DNA of 64,000 nt from Saccharopolyspora gregorii (GTDB taxonomy: Bacteria > Actinomycetota > Actinomycetes > Mycobacteriales > Pseudonocardiaceae). Under the pieces are notes generated by a model, which saw nothing but the letters and a program-made list of their open reading frames with translations, searched no databases and was not told the origin of the DNA. The translations under genes were made by a program, and so were the position numbers. Positions 8,338-48,347 of the stretch are shown piece after piece (the stretch's first letter is position 1; each line of letters starts with the position of its first letter). The stretch covers positions 2,976,001 through 3,040,000 of the forward strand of contig NZ_CP059556.1 in NCBI RefSeq assembly GCF_024734405.1. Reading direction: 5' to 3'.

Positions 8338-8374
8338 GCGAGAGGCCCACGCCTGCCAGGCGTGGGCCTCTCGC
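8338..8374 (+). terminator. Terminator after cold shock gene
   Basis: A perfect 16-bp stem (GCGAGAGGCCCACGCC with its complement) and 5-nt loop TGCCA, 12 bp after the csp stop. Confidence 0.85.
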
Positions 8375-31055: not shown

Positions 31056-31462
31056 TGGGGGACGAGGACACGGGCACTCCCGCACGGGTGGCCGTGACGC
31101 CGGAGGCGGCGGATCTGATCCGCCGCCTCCGGGCGCAGCACGGCCCGGTGATGTTCCACCAGTCCGGCGGGTGCTGCGACGGCAGCGCCCCCATGTGCTA
31201 CCCGCAGGGCGAGTTCCGCACCGGGGCGTCCGACGTGCACCTGGGCGACCTCGCGGTGGCCGACGAGAACGGCGATCCCGACCCGGTGCCGATGTGGATG
31301 TCCGGCGCCCAGTTCGAGTACTGGAAGCACACCCACCTGACCGTCGACGTGGTTCCGGGGCGGGGGAGCGGATTCTCCTTGGAGGCGCCCGAAGGCGTGC
31401 GCTTCCTGATCCGATCCCGGTTGCTCACCGACGAGGAGTGGGCCGGGCTCGGCGAGCGCTGA
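31055..31462 (+). CDS. DUF779 family protein
   Basis: A 135-residue cytosolic protein whose ATG overlaps the aldehyde dehydrogenase stop by one base, implying translational coupling. It has a Cys cluster (GGCCDGSAPMCYP, about residues 33-45) and a conserved FEYWKHTHLTVDVVPGRGSGFSLE segment. DUF779 proteins are repeatedly linked to AldB-type aldehyde dehydrogenases, but no activity is established. The Cys cluster suggests metal binding or assistance to the partner (inference). A strong hairpin terminator begins five bases after the stop. Confidence 0.88.
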   Translation: MGDEDTGTPARVAVTPEAADLIRRLRAQHGPVMFHQSGGCCDGSAPMCYPQGEFRTGASDVHLGDLAVADENGDPDPVPMWMSGAQFEYWKHTHLTVDVVPGRGSGFSLEAPEGVRFLIRSRLLTDEEWAGLGER

Positions 31463-33211: not shown

Positions 33212-35089
33212 TCAACTCGGTCGCTGCCCGCGCAGCGCGCTCCGGAGGGCGTCGAGCACCGACGGGTCCTCGATGGTCGAGGGCACCTTCGCCTCGCCGG
33301 TGTCGGCGATCTCCCGCATCGACTTGCGCAGCACCTTCCCCGACCGCGTCTTCGGCAGCCCGTCCACCACGTCCACGTCCCGGAACGCCGCGACCGGCCC
33401 GATCTGGTCCCGCACCGCGGCCACCAGCTCCGCCCGCAGCTCCGCCGGGTCGACCTCGACGCCGGACTTGAGCACCACGAAACCGCGCGGCACCTGGCCC
33501 TTGAGCGCGTCGTGCACGCCGATCACCGCGCACTCCGCCACCGCCGGGTGCGCGGCGAGCACCGCCTCCATCGATCCGGTGGACAACCGGTGCCCCGCCA
33601 CGTTGATCACGTCATCGGTGCGGCCCATCACGAACACGTAGCCGTCCTCGTCCACGTGCCCGCTGTCGCCGGTCAGGTAGTAGCCGGGGTACCGGGACAG
33701 GTAGGACTCGCGGAACCGCTCGTCGTCGCCCCACAGCGTCGGCAGCATCCCCGGCGGCAGCGGCTGCTTGATGCAGATCGCGCCGTCCACTCCCGGCGGC
33801 ACCTCCGCGCCCGCCTGGTCGAGCACCCGCACGTCGAACCCGGGCACCGGCACCGTCGGCGACCCCGGCTTGATCGGCATCGGTTCCAGGCCGCGCAGGT
33901 TCGCGCAGATCGGCCAGCCCGTCTCGGTCTGCCACCAGTGGTCCACCACCGGCACGCCGAGGGTGCGCACCGCCCACTGGTAGGTCTCCGGGTCCAGCCG
34001 CTCCCCGGCGAGGAACAGCGTGCGCAGCGAGGACAGGTCGTGGTGGGCGAGCTCGGCCGCCTCCGGATCGACCCGCTTGATCGCCCGGAAGGCGGTCGGC
34101 GCGGTGAACAGCGCCTTCACCCCGTGCTCGGCGATGACCCGCCAGAACGCCCCCGCGTCCGGGGTGCCCACCGGCTTGCCCTCGTAGACCACGGTGGTCG
34201 CCCCGGCCAGCAGCGGGCCGTAGACGATGTAGGAGTGCCCGACGACCCAGCCCACGTCGGAGGCGGTCCAGAACACCTCCCCGGGCCCGATGTCGTAGAT
34301 GGCGCCCATCGACCAGCGCAGCGCCACCGCGTGCCCGCCGTGGTCGCGCACGACGCCCTTGGGGCGGCCGGTGGTGCCGGAGGTGTAGAGCACGTACAGC
34401 GGGTCGGTGGCCGCCACCGGCACGCAGTCGGCGGGCTCGGCGGCCGCCAGTGCTTCGGCGGCGTCGGCGTCGTCCGGGCCGAGCTCGGCGCGCGCCCGGT
34501 CGCGCTGGAACACCAGCACGCCGCCGGCCGGGCGGTGATCGGCCAGCCGCAGCGCCTCGTCGACGATCGGCTTGTACTCCACGACCCGGTTCGGCTCCAG
34601 CCCGCAGGAGGCGGCCACCACGATCGCCGGGCGGGCGTCGTCGATGCGGGCGGCGAGCTCCTTCGGCGCGAAGCCGCCGAAGACCACCGAGTGCACCGCG
34701 CCGATCCGCGCGCAGGCCAGCATCACCACCAGGGCTTCCGGGATCATCGGCAGGTAGACGATCACCCGGTCGCCCTTGCCGACGCCGCGCGCCCGCAGCG
34801 CCCCGGCGAAGCGGGCGGTGCGGTCCAGCAGCTCGCGGTAGGTCCAGCGGGACACCTCGCCGGTCATCGCCGAGTCCCAGATGACCGCGGCCTGCTCGCC
34901 CCGCCCGTCGCGCACGTGCCGGTCCAGCGCGTTGAAGCAGGTGTTGAGCACCCCGTCCGGGAACCAGCGCCCGGACTCGTCCAGCGCCCTGCTCGGCGCC
35001 CGGTCCCAGTCGATGCCGGTTGCGGCCTCCAGCCAGAACCCCTCGGGGTCGGCGAGGCTGCGCCGGTGCGCGTCGGCGTGGGCACCCAT
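33212..35089 (-). CDS. Propionyl/acetyl-CoA synthetase (PrpE/Acs type)
   Basis: A 625-residue acyl-CoA synthetase forming propionyl- or acetyl-CoA from the free acid, ATP and CoA. ATG 35089 is eight bases after GGGAGG. Motifs: YTSGTTGRPKGVVRDHGGH, WTASDVGWVVGHSYIVYGPL, VDHWWQTETGWPI, GDSGHVDEDGYVFVMGRTDDVINVAGHRLSTGSMEAVLAAHPAVAE, and the C-terminal PKTRSGKVLRKSMR, whose Lys is the acetylation-regulated catalytic residue. The short N-terminal region (DPEGFWLEAATGIDWDRAPSRALD) and RVVEYKPIVDEAL favour PrpE over Acs. It is followed on the same strand by the hexosaminidase gene 145 bp away, with its own site between. Confidence 0.9.
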   Translation of the reverse strand: MGAHADAHRRSLADPEGFWLEAATGIDWDRAPSRALDESGRWFPDGVLNTCFNALDRHVRDGRGEQAAVIWDSAMTGEVSRWTYRELLDRTARFAGALRARGVGKGDRVIVYLPMIPEALVVMLACARIGAVHSVVFGGFAPKELAARIDDARPAIVVAASCGLEPNRVVEYKPIVDEALRLADHRPAGGVLVFQRDRARAELGPDDADAAEALAAAEPADCVPVAATDPLYVLYTSGTTGRPKGVVRDHGGHAVALRWSMGAIYDIGPGEVFWTASDVGWVVGHSYIVYGPLLAGATTVVYEGKPVGTPDAGAFWRVIAEHGVKALFTAPTAFRAIKRVDPEAAELAHHDLSSLRTLFLAGERLDPETYQWAVRTLGVPVVDHWWQTETGWPICANLRGLEPMPIKPGSPTVPVPGFDVRVLDQAGAEVPPGVDGAICIKQPLPPGMLPTLWGDDERFRESYLSRYPGYYLTGDSGHVDEDGYVFVMGRTDDVINVAGHRLSTGSMEAVLAAHPAVAECAVIGVHDALKGQVPRGFVVLKSGVEVDPAELRAELVAAVRDQIGPVAAFRDVDVVDGLPKTRSGKVLRKSMREIADTGEAKVPSTIEDPSVLDALRSALRGQRPS

Positions 35090-37797: not shown

Positions 37798-37829
37798 ATC
37801 GGGGCGACGCCATCCGGCGCCGCCCCGAT
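37798..37829 (+). terminator. Terminator after garA
   Basis: ATCGGGGCGACGCC and GGCGCCGCCCCGAT form a stem of 13 pairs with one mismatch and loop ATCC, 25 bp after the garA stop. Confidence 0.75.
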
Positions 37830-44616: not shown

Positions 44617-45048
44617 TCAGCCCTCGTCGGGGCCGGTCCGGCCGGGGCGCAGCTGCGCGATCAGCTCCCGCAGCCGCGGCGGGACCGGTGCCTTGGCGCC
44701 TTCCGGGTCGCGGCAGGCGAAGGTCATCCGGCCGTGGACGACGAGCTCGCCGTCCCGGGTGAACTCGAAGCCGAGGGTGTAGGAGGTGGTGCCTACCCGG
44801 TCCTGCACCACCTCGCAGGCCAGTTCGTCGAACACCCGCACCGGCGCCAGGTAGGTGGCCGCCGAGCGCACCCCGACCGTCCCGGTGCCCAGCTGCGCGG
44901 CCAGCTCCGCCGAGCGCAGCCCGCGGGCGTGCAGCCAGCTGCTGTAGGCCCGCTCCATCCACGGGTAGTAGATCGCGAAGTACGCGATGCCGAGCGCGTC
45001 GCAGTCCCCGTAGGACAGCCGGAAGCGCTGCACCTGGTCCACCGCCAT
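44617..45048 (-). CDS. YbgC-like acyl-CoA thioesterase (hot-dog fold)
   Basis: A 143-residue single hot-dog domain of the 4HBT/YbgC family, hydrolysing acyl-CoA thioesters in the cytosol. The catalytic Asp lies in RLSYGDCDALGIAYFAIYYPWMERAY near residue 15. Further family segments are TYLAPVRVFDELACEVV and SYTLGFEFTRDGELVVHGRMTFACRD. ATG 45048 is three bases after GGAGGG and overlaps the MaoC stop as TGATG, so the two are translationally coupled. The acyl substrate is unknown. Confidence 0.87.
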   Translation of the reverse strand: MAVDQVQRFRLSYGDCDALGIAYFAIYYPWMERAYSSWLHARGLRSAELAAQLGTGTVGVRSAATYLAPVRVFDELACEVVQDRVGTTSYTLGFEFTRDGELVVHGRMTFACRDPEGAKAPVPPRLRELIAQLRPGRTGPDEG

Positions 45049-45461
45049 CACCCTCCGATGTGGACGGACGCGGTGCCGGAGAGCACCGGATCGCCGCCGA
45101 GCACGTCGAGTCCGACCGCGCAGGACGCCACCAGGACACCGTCCTGTTCGGACACGCCGGTCACCGTGCCGTGCGCGCGCAACCGGTCCCCGGCGAACAC
45201 CGCGCCGAGGTGGCGCAACCGCAGCTCCCGGATCCGGTGCGCCCCGCCCGCCCAGCGCGCCAGCATCGACACCACGTACGCCTGGTTCAGCGGCCCCTGG
45301 TTCACCACCCGGTCGCCGAGCCCGAGGGCGCGCACCGCGGCCGGGTCGAAGTGGATCGGGTTCGCGTCCCGCATCAGGGCGGCCATCGTCTTCATCTTCT
45401 CCGCGCTGACCGGGCCGACCTGGTGGTCGGGCAGCACGTCCCCTGGCCGCACGCCGCTCAT
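45048..45461 (-). CDS. MaoC-like hydratase/dehydratase
   Basis: A 137-residue hot-dog hydratase of the MaoC family. The DANPIHFDPAAVRALGLGDRVVNQGPL motif includes the Asp and His (hydratase 2 motif) that act on the enoyl-CoA. It overlaps the FAS1-like dehydratase gene by 4 bp (ATGA) and the thioesterase by 1 bp. In actinobacteria such a pair of single hot-dog proteins forms a heterodimeric (R)-specific enoyl-CoA hydratase, for example in steroid side-chain degradation or in mycolic acid-type systems. Here the pairing is inferred from gene order. Confidence 0.87.
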   Translation of the reverse strand: MSGVRPGDVLPDHQVGPVSAEKMKTMAALMRDANPIHFDPAAVRALGLGDRVVNQGPLNQAYVVSMLARWAGGAHRIRELRLRHLGAVFAGDRLRAHGTVTGVSEQDGVLVASCAVGLDVLGGDPVLSGTASVHIGG

Positions 45462-45907
45462 CGGGGCCGCCGCGGGAACAGGATCGAGCTGGTGCAGGAC
45501 GCGGCCGCCGACCCGTCCGGTTCGTGCAGGTCCAGCCGGTACTCGACCAGGTCGAACACGCCGGTGCGAGCGCCGCGCTTGCGCCGCGCCGACTCGATCC
45601 GGCCCCGCACCGCGTAGGTGGCGCCGACCCGCAGCGGGCGGTGCAGCACGGTGTGCACCTCCCCGGCCATCGGGCCGTCCGACTCGCGGGCGCCGAACCA
45701 GCCCCAGAACCGCTCCCAGCTCACCCCCATCGCCGAGGTCGCGGCGAGGAACGCGAACACCGGGCTGCCGGCCCCGTCCTCCGGATCGGCGAGCGCGCAG
45801 TCGTTGACCAGCCGCACCCACCACGGCTCCACGGTGAACTCCCCGCCGGGCAACTCGGTGCCGACGAGCTCGGCCAGCGCCGCCTCGTCGGGTACGGCTG
45901 AGGTCAT
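45458..45907 (-). CDS. FAS1-like MaoC N-terminal dehydratase
   Basis: A 149-residue protein of the MaoC_dehydrat_N (FAS1-like) family. It is the likely partner of the adjacent MaoC protein. N-terminal FTVEPWWVRLVNDCALADPE, then SPVFAFLAATSAMGVSWERFWGWFGA and LHRPLRVGATYAVRGRIESARRKRGARTG fit the first half of two-domain hydratases, which lacks the His-Asp active site. ATG 45907 overlaps the last bases of the broken ligase gene (ATGA), so all these genes form one tight operon. Confidence 0.83.
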   Translation of the reverse strand: MTSAVPDEAALAELVGTELPGGEFTVEPWWVRLVNDCALADPEDGAGSPVFAFLAATSAMGVSWERFWGWFGARESDGPMAGEVHTVLHRPLRVGATYAVRGRIESARRKRGARTGVFDLVEYRLDLHEPDGSAAASCTSSILFPRRPR

Positions 45908-47092
45908 GTCCGCTCCTGATCCGCCCAGTAGGGGGCGCGCAGCTCGCGCTTGATCACTTTTCCGGTCGGGGCCTTGGGCAGGCTCGCGACGAAGTCCACC
46001 GACTTCGGCTTCTGGTAGGACGGCAGCCGCTGCCGGGCGGTGGCGATGATCTCGGCTCCGGTGGCGGTGGTGCCGGGTTTGAGCACCACGACGGCCTTCA
46101 CGTTCTCGCCCCACTCCGGATCAGGCAGCGTCCCCGTCGAGGAGGCCGTCGCGGCCCACCCCGCGGTGCTGGAGTGCGCGGTCATCGGCGTCCTGGATCA
46201 GCGAGCAGGGGAACGACTCCAGCGCGGCCCGCACCACCGAGGTGGGCATCGGCCCGCCGCCGTACTGGATGTTGCGCAGGCTGCGCAGGTCGTAGCGGTC
46301 GAACCCCGGCACCGCGAGCATCCAGTTCAGCATCGTGGTGATGCCGAGGAACGCCGAGACCCGCTCCTGCTCGATGACCCGCAGCGCCTGCTCGGCCGCG
46401 AAGTCCACCAGCACCAGCGGACAGCCGTGCCGCAGGTAGTTCATCGCCAGCACGATCGGGATGTGGAACATCTGCCCGGTCATCAGGTACACGTCACCGG
46501 GCACGATGCGCTCGGCGACGGTCTGGTGCACGCCGCCCGCCTCGGCGCTGCGGTGGGTGTGCAGCGCGCCCTTGCTGCGGCCGGTGGTGCCGCCGGTGTG
46601 GAGGATGAAGAACGGGTCGTGGTCGCCGACGTGCTCGCTACCGGGCGGTTCGGCGGCGGAGGCGGCGGCCAGCAGCTCCTCGTAGCCGCCGTCACCGCCG
46701 AACTCCAGCCAGTGGGCCAGGTCGCAGGTCCGCCGCAGCTCCGCGGCCTGCGCGGACCACTCGGCGGCGGTGATCAGCGCCCGCGGCGTCGCGTCCCGCA
46801 GCAGCCGGGCCAGCTCCGCGGTGTCGAGCCGCCAGTTCAGCGGTTGCAGCACCAGCCCGGCCCGGCCGCAGGCGAAGTACAGCTCCAGCAGCTCCACCCG
46901 GTTCCGGGACAGCGCCGCCACCCGGTCGCCGCGGCGCAACCCGAGCCCGAGCAGTCCGTTGGCGAGCCGCCGCACCCGCTCGTCCAGCTCGGCCCAGCGC
47001 ACCCGCCGTCCGGTCGGCACGTCGTGCACGGCGAGCGCGCGCGGCGCCAGCGCCGCCCACTTCGCCGGGATGAGGCCCAGGTTGAGCGTCAC
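45904..47092 (-). pseudogene. Broken acyl-CoA ligase gene with internal deletion and micro-inversion
   Basis: From GTG 47092 an acyl-CoA synthetase reads normally for 300 residues (MTLNLGLIPAKWAALAPRA, ILHTGGTTGRSKGALHTH, YGGGPMPTSVVRAALESFPCSLIQ) to 46193. The C-terminal end (PDPEWGENVKAVVVLKPG ... LPKAPTGKVIKREL) is intact from 46125 to the stop at 45904. Between them about 130 codons covering the QTE, TGD and hinge motifs are missing. The 67 bp at 46126-46192 read VEEAVAAHPAVLECAVIGV on the plus strand, a conserved ligase segment in the wrong orientation. Re-inverting it would restore VIGV-PDPEWGE exactly. GGATCAG occurs at 46118 and 46195. As written the protein ends 23 aberrant residues later and cannot be active. 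A sequencing or assembly error should be excluded. Confidence 0.85.
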
Positions 47093-47511
47093 GAGAACGG
47101 CAGGTCCAGCTCGACCCGCAGGTCGCTGATCCGCCAGCCCCCGGATCCGTCCGGCGCTCCGCGCAGCTCGGCGAGGTAGCGGCCGGTGGTGACCGCGCGC
47201 AGCGCGCCGTCCGCCACCGCGAACAGGGTCAGGTAGCTGCGCGCCCGGGCCCGGTCACCGGCGTGCTCCAGCACCAGGTTGCTCAGCACGTGCCTGCGCC
47301 GGTCCCGCTGCGAACCCGCCGTTCCCCGGACCAGCTCGACGATGGCGTCGCGGCCGCGGACCGGGCCCGTCACCGCGCCGTCCGCCACGTGCACCGACAG
47401 CTCGGCGTCGGCGGTGAAGCAGTCCGCGAGCAGCTCCAGATCGCCCTCGTCGTAGCCGAGCGCGTAGCGCGCCAGCACGTCCTCGACGGCGGAGCGGACC
47501 GCCGCGCTCAC
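47089..47511 (-). CDS. SnoaL/NTF2-like protein
   Basis: A 140-residue NTF2-like (SnoaL) fold: DVLARYALGYDEGDLELLADCFTADAELSVHVADG, then GRDAIVELVRG, RRRHVLSNLVLEH and WRISDLRVELDLPFS. Such proteins act as isomerases, cyclases, hydratases or dehydratases on small hydrophobic substrates; the Tyr/Asp/His pattern here does not fix which. GTG 47511 overlaps the SDR stop (GTGA), and its own stop overlaps the ligase start. It belongs to the leftward acyl-metabolism operon. Function unknown. Confidence 0.78.
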   Translation of the reverse strand: MSAAVRSAVEDVLARYALGYDEGDLELLADCFTADAELSVHVADGAVTGPVRGRDAIVELVRGTAGSQRDRRRHVLSNLVLEHAGDRARARSYLTLFAVADGALRAVTTGRYLAELRGAPDGSGGWRISDLRVELDLPFS

Positions 47512-48347
47512 CGGACGCCGACCCCGGCGTCGACGGGGAACGCCGCGCCGGTCACGAACCGCGCCTCGTCGCCCGCGAGGAACGCGACCGCGTCGCTGAC
47601 GTCGGACTCGCGCACCCACGGCGTCGGCAGCACGTGCATCGCCCGCATCGCCGGTTCCGCGTTCTCCAGCGTCGGTTCCGCGCCGGGCGGGCTGAACATC
47701 CCGTAGAAGGTCGGGTGCTGGATCATCGGCGTGCTCACGTTCGTCGGGTGGATCGTGTTGACCCGGATGCCGTGCTCGCCGAGCTCACCGGCGAGGCTCT
47801 GCATCAACCCGACCACGCCCTGCTTGGCGGCCGAGTAGTGCGCCAGCCCGCCGCGGCCCTTCAACCCGGCGACCGAGGAGATGAGCAGCAGGCAGCCGCC
47901 GTCGCCCTGCTCGATCATCGTCGGGATCGCGGCCTTCGCGGTGTGGAAGACCCCGGTGAGGTTCACGTCGATCATGTCCTGCCACTGCTCGGCGGTCAGC
48001 TCCCAGCTGCGGCCGAAGGAGACGATGCCCGCGTTGGCGATGACGACGTCGACCCTGCCGAGCTCGGCCACGCCCGAGTCGAACGCGGCCTGCAGCCCGT
48101 CGAAGTCGCGCACGTCGGCGATCCGGGCCACCGCGCGCCTGCCCAGCTCCTCGACGCGGCGGGCGGTCTCGGCCAGGTCGTGCTCGGTGGGCATCGAGTA
48201 GACCGGCGCGACCGAGTCGATCTCGGCGCACCGGTCGACGGCGATGACGTCGGCGCCCTCGGCGGCCAGCCGCAGCGCGTGGGAACGTCCCTGCCCCCGC
48301 GCCGCCCCGGTGATGAACGCGACCTTGCCGGCCATCCGATCGGCCAT
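47508..48347 (-). CDS. SDR oxidoreductase, mycofactocin-coupled type
   Basis: A 279-residue SDR. The N-terminal ITGAARGQGRSHALRLAAEGADVIAVD and the insert around VAPVYSMPTEHDLAETARRVEELG are marks of the carveol-dehydrogenase-like, mycofactocin-dependent subgroup, which holds its NAD tightly. Catalytic elements: NAGI, Ser in LISSVAGLKG, YSAAK, and HPTNVSTPMI. ATG 48347 lies after GGGCGGACGG. It is the first gene of the leftward operon, 85 bp from a good promoter. Its substrate is probably a hydrophobic secondary alcohol (inference). No mycofactocin genes are in the window. Confidence 0.87.
   Translation of the reverse strand: MADRMAGKVAFITGAARGQGRSHALRLAAEGADVIAVDRCAEIDSVAPVYSMPTEHDLAETARRVEELGRRAVARIADVRDFDGLQAAFDSGVAELGRVDVVIANAGIVSFGRSWELTAEQWQDMIDVNLTGVFHTAKAAIPTMIEQGDGGCLLLISSVAGLKGRGGLAHYSAAKQGVVGLMQSLAGELGEHGIRVNTIHPTNVSTPMIQHPTFYGMFSPPGAEPTLENAEPAMRAMHVLPTPWVRESDVSDAVAFLAGDEARFVTGAAFPVDAGVGVR

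Follow-up and report, generated by a model that had tools for sequence, protein, structure and literature searches.

An acyl-CoA ligase gene destroyed by a combined deletion and micro-inversion in a Saccharopolyspora operon

The window analysed here, the whole stretch of 64,000 nucleotides (nt), comes from a genome that consists of a single contig of 6,344,421 bases. It carries a conserved operon (44617-48347) with genes for an SDR oxidoreductase, a SnoaL-like protein, an acyl-CoA ligase, two MaoC-like proteins and a YbgC-like thioesterase. The ligase gene is broken. On the minus strand it reads cleanly as far as PCSLIQ (46193) and its C-terminal part is read from 46125, both fragments being otherwise open frames. 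The 67 nt between them (46192-46126) encode, on the plus strand, the ligase's own SVxVEEAVAAHPAVLECAVIGV segment. The gene was destroyed by a deletion combined with a micro-inversion. An initial annotation had recognised a 67-bp micro-inversion in a broken acyl-CoA ligase gene and had called it a rearrangement scar and not a plain frameshift, and both statements are borne out by Pfam matches on the two strands and by the reverse alignment to all five genus relatives.

The N-terminal fragment matched the Pfam AMP-binding profile at positions 3-316 of 384, and the minus-strand C-terminal fragment matched AMP-binding_C at positions 21-76 of 76. The plus-strand frame matched AMP-binding_C at positions 2-29 of 76 (E 8.2e-5; 23.9 bits, slightly below the cut-off of 24.5). 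A complete PF00501 together with PF13193 was not found in one frame, as the core ends at 316 of 384 and the C-terminal domain is split across the two strands. In amino acid sequence the N-terminal fragment is 75-79% and the C-terminal fragment 80-85% identical to the five genus relatives L010-L014.

The orthologues were compared in a genus sample of six genomes, including this one, and in a family sample of 150 genomes, where an orthologue was called at E <= 1e-150. In the five other genus genomes no stop interrupts the open frame that holds the ligase match; L011-L013, L039 and L040 were translated, and L010 and L014 were read by their coding spans. The orthologue is present in 19 of the 150 family genomes, 18 of which match 512-515 of the 515 residues free of stops. 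This genome has the sole cut orthologue, matching residues 1-301 only. A genuine shorter ligase among the homologues, the refuting case named in the initial annotation, does not occur in this sample, since all 18 other orthologues are full length. Between LIQ and the inverted part 121 residues were counted in ten orthologue rows (eight contigs), which corrects the earlier estimate of about 130 deleted codons. This stretch measures 429 nt in five ancestor stand-ins and 67 nt here, a net loss of 362 nt. For the residue columns 82 rows were used; they include the duplicate pairs L010 and L039 as well as L013 and L040, while L096, L104 and L114 had been dropped as incomplete.

The lost segment was not found elsewhere in the genome, where the best of 26 matches had 51% amino acid identity, and a relocation of the lost part was rejected on this ground. 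No close second copy of the 67-mer was found in the genome either, the best of three other matches reaching 81% over 55 nt (40 of 200 candidates scored). The window holds ligase-like DNA a second time, at 33516-33574 (which resembles the inverted piece, 81% over 55 nt) and at 34354-34444 (which resembles the N-terminal part of the ligase, 76% over 91 nt), and the two pieces probably belong to another ligase gene.

A stretch of 72 kb was taken from every one of the five genus relatives and aligned to the window, of which the forward chains covered 57-63 kb. A reverse match at the collinear place was obtained with all five, at 46126-46191 or 46126-46197 (66-72 nt, 86-88% DNA identity). Over the five genomes 74 collinear reverse-strand matches were found; five, one per relative, fall in gaps of the forward alignment and the other 69 sit inside forward alignments. 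Because these five are the sole reverse matches in such gaps, 46126-46192 is the only candidate micro-inversion in the aligned part at this sensitivity. Three sites, at 8338-8373, 31090-31132 and 37798-37829, were inspected by eye among those inside forward alignments. They are hairpins, each with a reverse match in three or more of the five relatives, and probably terminators or the like, and such hairpins imitate micro-inversions in a reverse-strand scan.

In a phase-variable inverton, inverted repeats flank the invertible piece. Here the flanking repeat is direct, and the four inverted pairs that were found (82-89%) do not bound the inverted piece. Flipping cannot restore the gene because 121 codons are lost. 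The insertion of a transposon or insertion sequence, which brings in a foreign insert, was rejected, as what is inserted here is reversed sequence of the ligase gene itself.

Table 1. Features of the ligase locus and its operon (positions in the window)
Feature	Coordinates	Strand	Basis or remark
Mycofactocin-coupled SDR oxidoreductase, operon gene	47508..48347	-	TIGR03971, 394.6 bits
SnoaL-like protein, operon gene	47089..47511	-	Start placed at 47511 by eye; the frame as listed begins at 47619
N-terminal ligase fragment, 300 codons, PCSLIQ end at 46193	46193..47092	-	Pfam, relatives
Open frame of the broken ligase, 323 residues	46121..47092	-	Last 23 residues mostly from the inverted segment
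Inverted segment, 66-68 nt, plus-strand reading SVPVEEAVAAHPAVLECAVIGV	46126..46192	+	Reverse alignment to relatives
First junction, left flank to inverted segment; the relatives' 121 codons are absent here	46191..46192		Alignment to relatives
CCTGATCC at the second junction	46118..46125	-	Possibly recopied from the end of the left flank (CTGATCC), with one unmatched C, or a direct repeat from before the event
C-terminal ligase fragment, GGAGTGGGGCGAG... through stop TGA, with PKAPTGKVIK	45904..46117	-	Pfam, relatives
Second open frame, 93 residues, ATG within the inverted segment	45904..46185	-	AMP-binding_C 21-76
Direct-repeat copy GGATCAGCGAGC in the left flank	46195..46206	+	Repeat search
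Direct-repeat copy GGATCAGGCAGC at the second junction	46118..46129	+	Repeat search
MaoC-like protein 1, operon gene	45458..45907	-	Named by position beside protein 2, without a family match of its own; overlaps the ligase stop by 4 bp
MaoC-like dehydratase 2, operon gene	45048..45461	-	Family match
4HBT/YbgC-like thioesterase, operon gene	44617..45051	-	NCBIfam matches below cut-offs

The order of the genes in the ligase operon and its flanks is identical in L039 (Table 1). The operon genes are 69-83% identical to those of L039 and the flanking genes 83-95%, with the MaoC row left out. In the ligase search the nearest named relatives were Saccharopolyspora sp. NFXS83 and HNM0986, which points to a host of the Saccharopolyspora group of actinobacteria.

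The junctions were analysed with a mosaic alignment to the five ancestor stand-ins at switch costs of 8 and 6. At cost 8, all five gave the left flank up to 46192 (46194 in one), then the inverted piece (66-68 nt, 8-9 mismatches), then an 8-nt patch (46125-46118), and finally the right flank, which begins at 46117 and has 0-2 mismatches. Cost 6 left this unchanged except with L041, where the inverted piece splits further. The patch CCTGATCC was assigned to the end of the left flank with one mismatch in four of the five stand-ins; with L012, an equal score (one mismatch) was reached by a reversed site within the lost part. These 8 nt beside the inversion are unlike the relatives and contain a 7-mer of the left flank. 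On the plus strand this is seen as the two GGATCAG copies at 46118 and 46195 that had been reported before; they form a direct repeat that extends to 12 nt at 83%. By eye, 0-2 nt are shared at the junctions and a single C is unmatched, a reading that depends on the ancestor stand-ins.

In the ligase frame the patch reads P-D-P with the codons CCT GAT CCG, and the relatives whose codons were compared have others there. Its third residue is P, in a column that has D in 53, E in 25, P in 3 and A in 1 of the 82 rows. The initial annotation had taken these nucleotides as ordinary gene sequence and had proposed that exact re-inversion restores VIGV-PDPEWGE. The in-frame arithmetic of this proposal is correct; it is not clear that PDP is the ancestral reading, with codons unlike those of the relatives compared, and it may be part of the scar. 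CCTGATCC may have been recopied from the end of the left flank, or it may be an older repeat. Gene conversion from a paralogue was rejected as a source of the patch, none of the three ligases of this genome with printed codons reading CCTGATCC in a search that was not exhaustive (four were extracted by motif).

How could this structure have arisen? We infer a natural loss of function by one local deletion-inversion event, either by template switching or by end joining with filler made by a polymerase, and we give this explanation an even chance of being right. A single event would have replaced about 429-437 nt (the 121 codons, the next 66-67 nt and perhaps 8 nt more) by filler. The filler would have two parts: first, as reverse complement, the 66-67 nt that adjoined the loss on its right side, and then CCTGATCC, maybe recopied from the left end. 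The process would start from a break or a stalled fork at the left site. Synthesis would be primed on the opposite strand at a distance of about 430 nt and would run backwards for about 66 nt. A short second priming at the end of the left flank may have followed before synthesis resumed on the right side. A fuller version is tentative and we regard it as rather unlikely: besides the net loss of 362 nt there would have been three local switches in succession, from the left flank to the inverted piece, on to the recopied end of the left flank and then to the right flank. If true, the scar would be a natural example, in an actinobacterium, of filler repair templated serially by a polymerase, beyond a plain flip. 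The order of the switches and the enzymes involved are likewise conjectural.

Several observations weigh against this explanation. The outer flanks of the mosaic were the window's own sequence, so that their near-perfect match is given by construction. The chance of the shared 7-mer, 0.22% and 0.54% in two simple simulations, overstates the case for a recopied patch; rearrangements tend to fall at repeats, and for this reason an older rare repeat is not absurd. The patch has the same length as the sequence it replaces, and an earlier mutation of right-flank DNA may have produced it and so formed the direct repeat. In eight window genes CCT makes up 1 of 184 proline codons and GAT 4 of 160 aspartate codons, an argument for recopying that is weakened because codons with A or T in the last position are more frequent in the whole C-terminal fragment (8 of 73, including this CCT and GAT and one further GAT) than in the N-terminal fragment (8 of 300). 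Two adjacent changes in the inverted piece turn a Q that is present in 82 of 82 rows into P, and this double change is unexplained: no source for the 2-nt change was found, the 20-mer across the junction having no other place at up to two mismatches and four places at three. Finally, the scar is known from one assembled genome of one strain, although an artefact is unlikely.

The rearrangement could also have been made by end joining with a flipped fragment. Here, cuts at the left site and on both sides of the 67-nt piece would release a large piece that is lost and a small one that is religated in inverted orientation by Ku and LigD, without long copying. We consider this quite possible, if somewhat below an even chance. 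It predicts that there is no close second copy of the piece of 67 nt, as was found, and the short shared sequences and the unmatched C, as read by eye at the junctions, may be in keeping with it. The genes for the end-joining machinery are present in the genome, with one Ku match and three matches to the LigD polymerase domain over the cut-offs. A Ku match and one to the LigD polymerase domain lie about 0.4 kb apart on the same strand at G000:C1:3237103-3238822, outside the window, and the two further LigD polymerase domains are elsewhere. Among end-joining scars of Streptomyces ambofaciens, as given in the available part of the report, two clones had gained 42 or 83 bp of nearby DNA (PMC5869714). 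That part of the text does not state the orientation of the inserts, however, and some synthesis would be required also by a flipped fragment if CCTGATCC is recopied left flank. Template switching, as first suggested for this locus, is compatible with the data, and end joining of a flipped fragment fits about as well. Both routes agree with the sequence, which alone does not separate copying from cutting and flipping; we lean slightly to the copying route because the patch is possibly recopied.

A sequencing or assembly artefact, such as a phi29-type chimeric molecule, has to be named because these chimeras show such a structure: in the part of the source available, inverted sequences with intervening deletions predominate among them (PMC1855051). 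The scar is known from assembled sequence alone. However, the single 6.34-Mb contig suggests an isolate and a consensus of many reads, the scar returns to the right flank and so needs a second switch, and an artefact would not explain why the differences from the relatives are concentrated at the second junction. We regard an artefact as improbable and the scar as very probably real. Least probable of all are two ordinary steps, in which the whole 429-nt stretch was inverted and most of it was then deleted; the end product would be identical, and an imperfect inverted match GATCCAGG / GGATCAGG is seen by eye if CCTGATCC is ancestral, but two hits with a common breakpoint are needed and the intermediate was not seen in the five genus relatives, which are other species.

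The locus looks like an ordinary loss-of-function scar of a known kind, not a new genetic system. The four-point model of template switching names 1-3-2-4 as a class that loses information, in which a shorter reverse complement, taken from within, stands in for a larger region bounded by two points (PMC7954356). The same structure was found here, the reverse complement of an inner piece replacing a larger region. In its available text that study differs in that it concerns great apes and effectively disallows large deletions, with a threshold of 50 deletions per alignment (PMC7954356); here, there is a net loss of 362 nt and possibly an extra 8-nt patch. The scars of S. ambofaciens resemble ours in coming from an actinobacterium and in their deletions and, as far as our junctions can be read with the stand-ins, perhaps also in short microhomology, added bases and local inserts. 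As far as the source was available, 1-6 nt of microhomology occurred in 50% and added bases in 40%, among them single untemplated bases; those breaks were induced with I-SceI, whereas the event here was natural (PMC5869714). In yeast genes, template switching between inverted repeats can invert a spacer, and the portion of that report at hand likewise describes a short coding stretch inverted by polymerase switching (PMC8604942), in contrast to 67 nt without perfect arms and with a large loss in the present case. No bacterial case of this kind was recognised by title or abstract among the matches listed, which is not proof of absence. One bacterial paper that uses the word microinversion only cites mammalian work for the term in the part that was available (PMC2483231).

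The loss of the ligase appears fairly recent. The ratios of non-synonymous to synonymous substitution (dN/dS), given for this genome against L039, against L040 and for L039 against L040, were 0.32, 0.52 and 0.38 in the N-terminal fragment, 0.45, 0.35 and 0.36 in the SDR gene and 0.39, 0.48 and 0.38 in the thioesterase gene. The N-terminal fragment is within the range of its neighbours or slightly higher. Unique residue changes in this genome and in L039 numbered 26 to 19 in the N-terminal fragment, 7 to 4 in the C-terminal fragment and 26 to 18 in the SDR protein; the MaoC pair was left out of both comparisons. At columns that are invariant in the other rows, 3 changes in 106 were found here. 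In the 18 comparison rows there were none or one in 15, three in L010 and L039 (one contig) and four in L059, so the three changes are a weak sign of decay. Relaxed selection, as proof of an old pseudogene, was not established by these figures.

The missing stretch sits between AMP-binding profile position 316 and the C-terminal domain. In this enzyme class it holds motifs needed for adenylation, and the ligase fragments should therefore be inactive. A working ligase is probably absent in this strain, judged from the sequence. The inversion supplied an ATG at 46185 on the minus strand, with an AGGA five bases upstream by eye. The 93-residue frame that begins there carries the ligase C-terminal domain and ends in a 4-bp overlap with the next gene. 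Translation could restart at 46185 and keep the operon translated. The initial annotation had described the downstream genes as coupled by 1-4 bp overlaps; overlaps of 4 bp were present at the four junctions checked, and the genes may still be translationally linked.

Such scars are easily mistaken for plain frameshifted pseudogenes. The locus provides a resolved case of a bacterial gene lost through a combined deletion and inversion, which can be detected by comparing the opposite strand with relatives. For the organism, the finding suggests that the ligase step is now missing in this strain from a conserved SDR-SnoaL-ligase-MaoC-MaoC-thioesterase operon, the other frames of which are still open.
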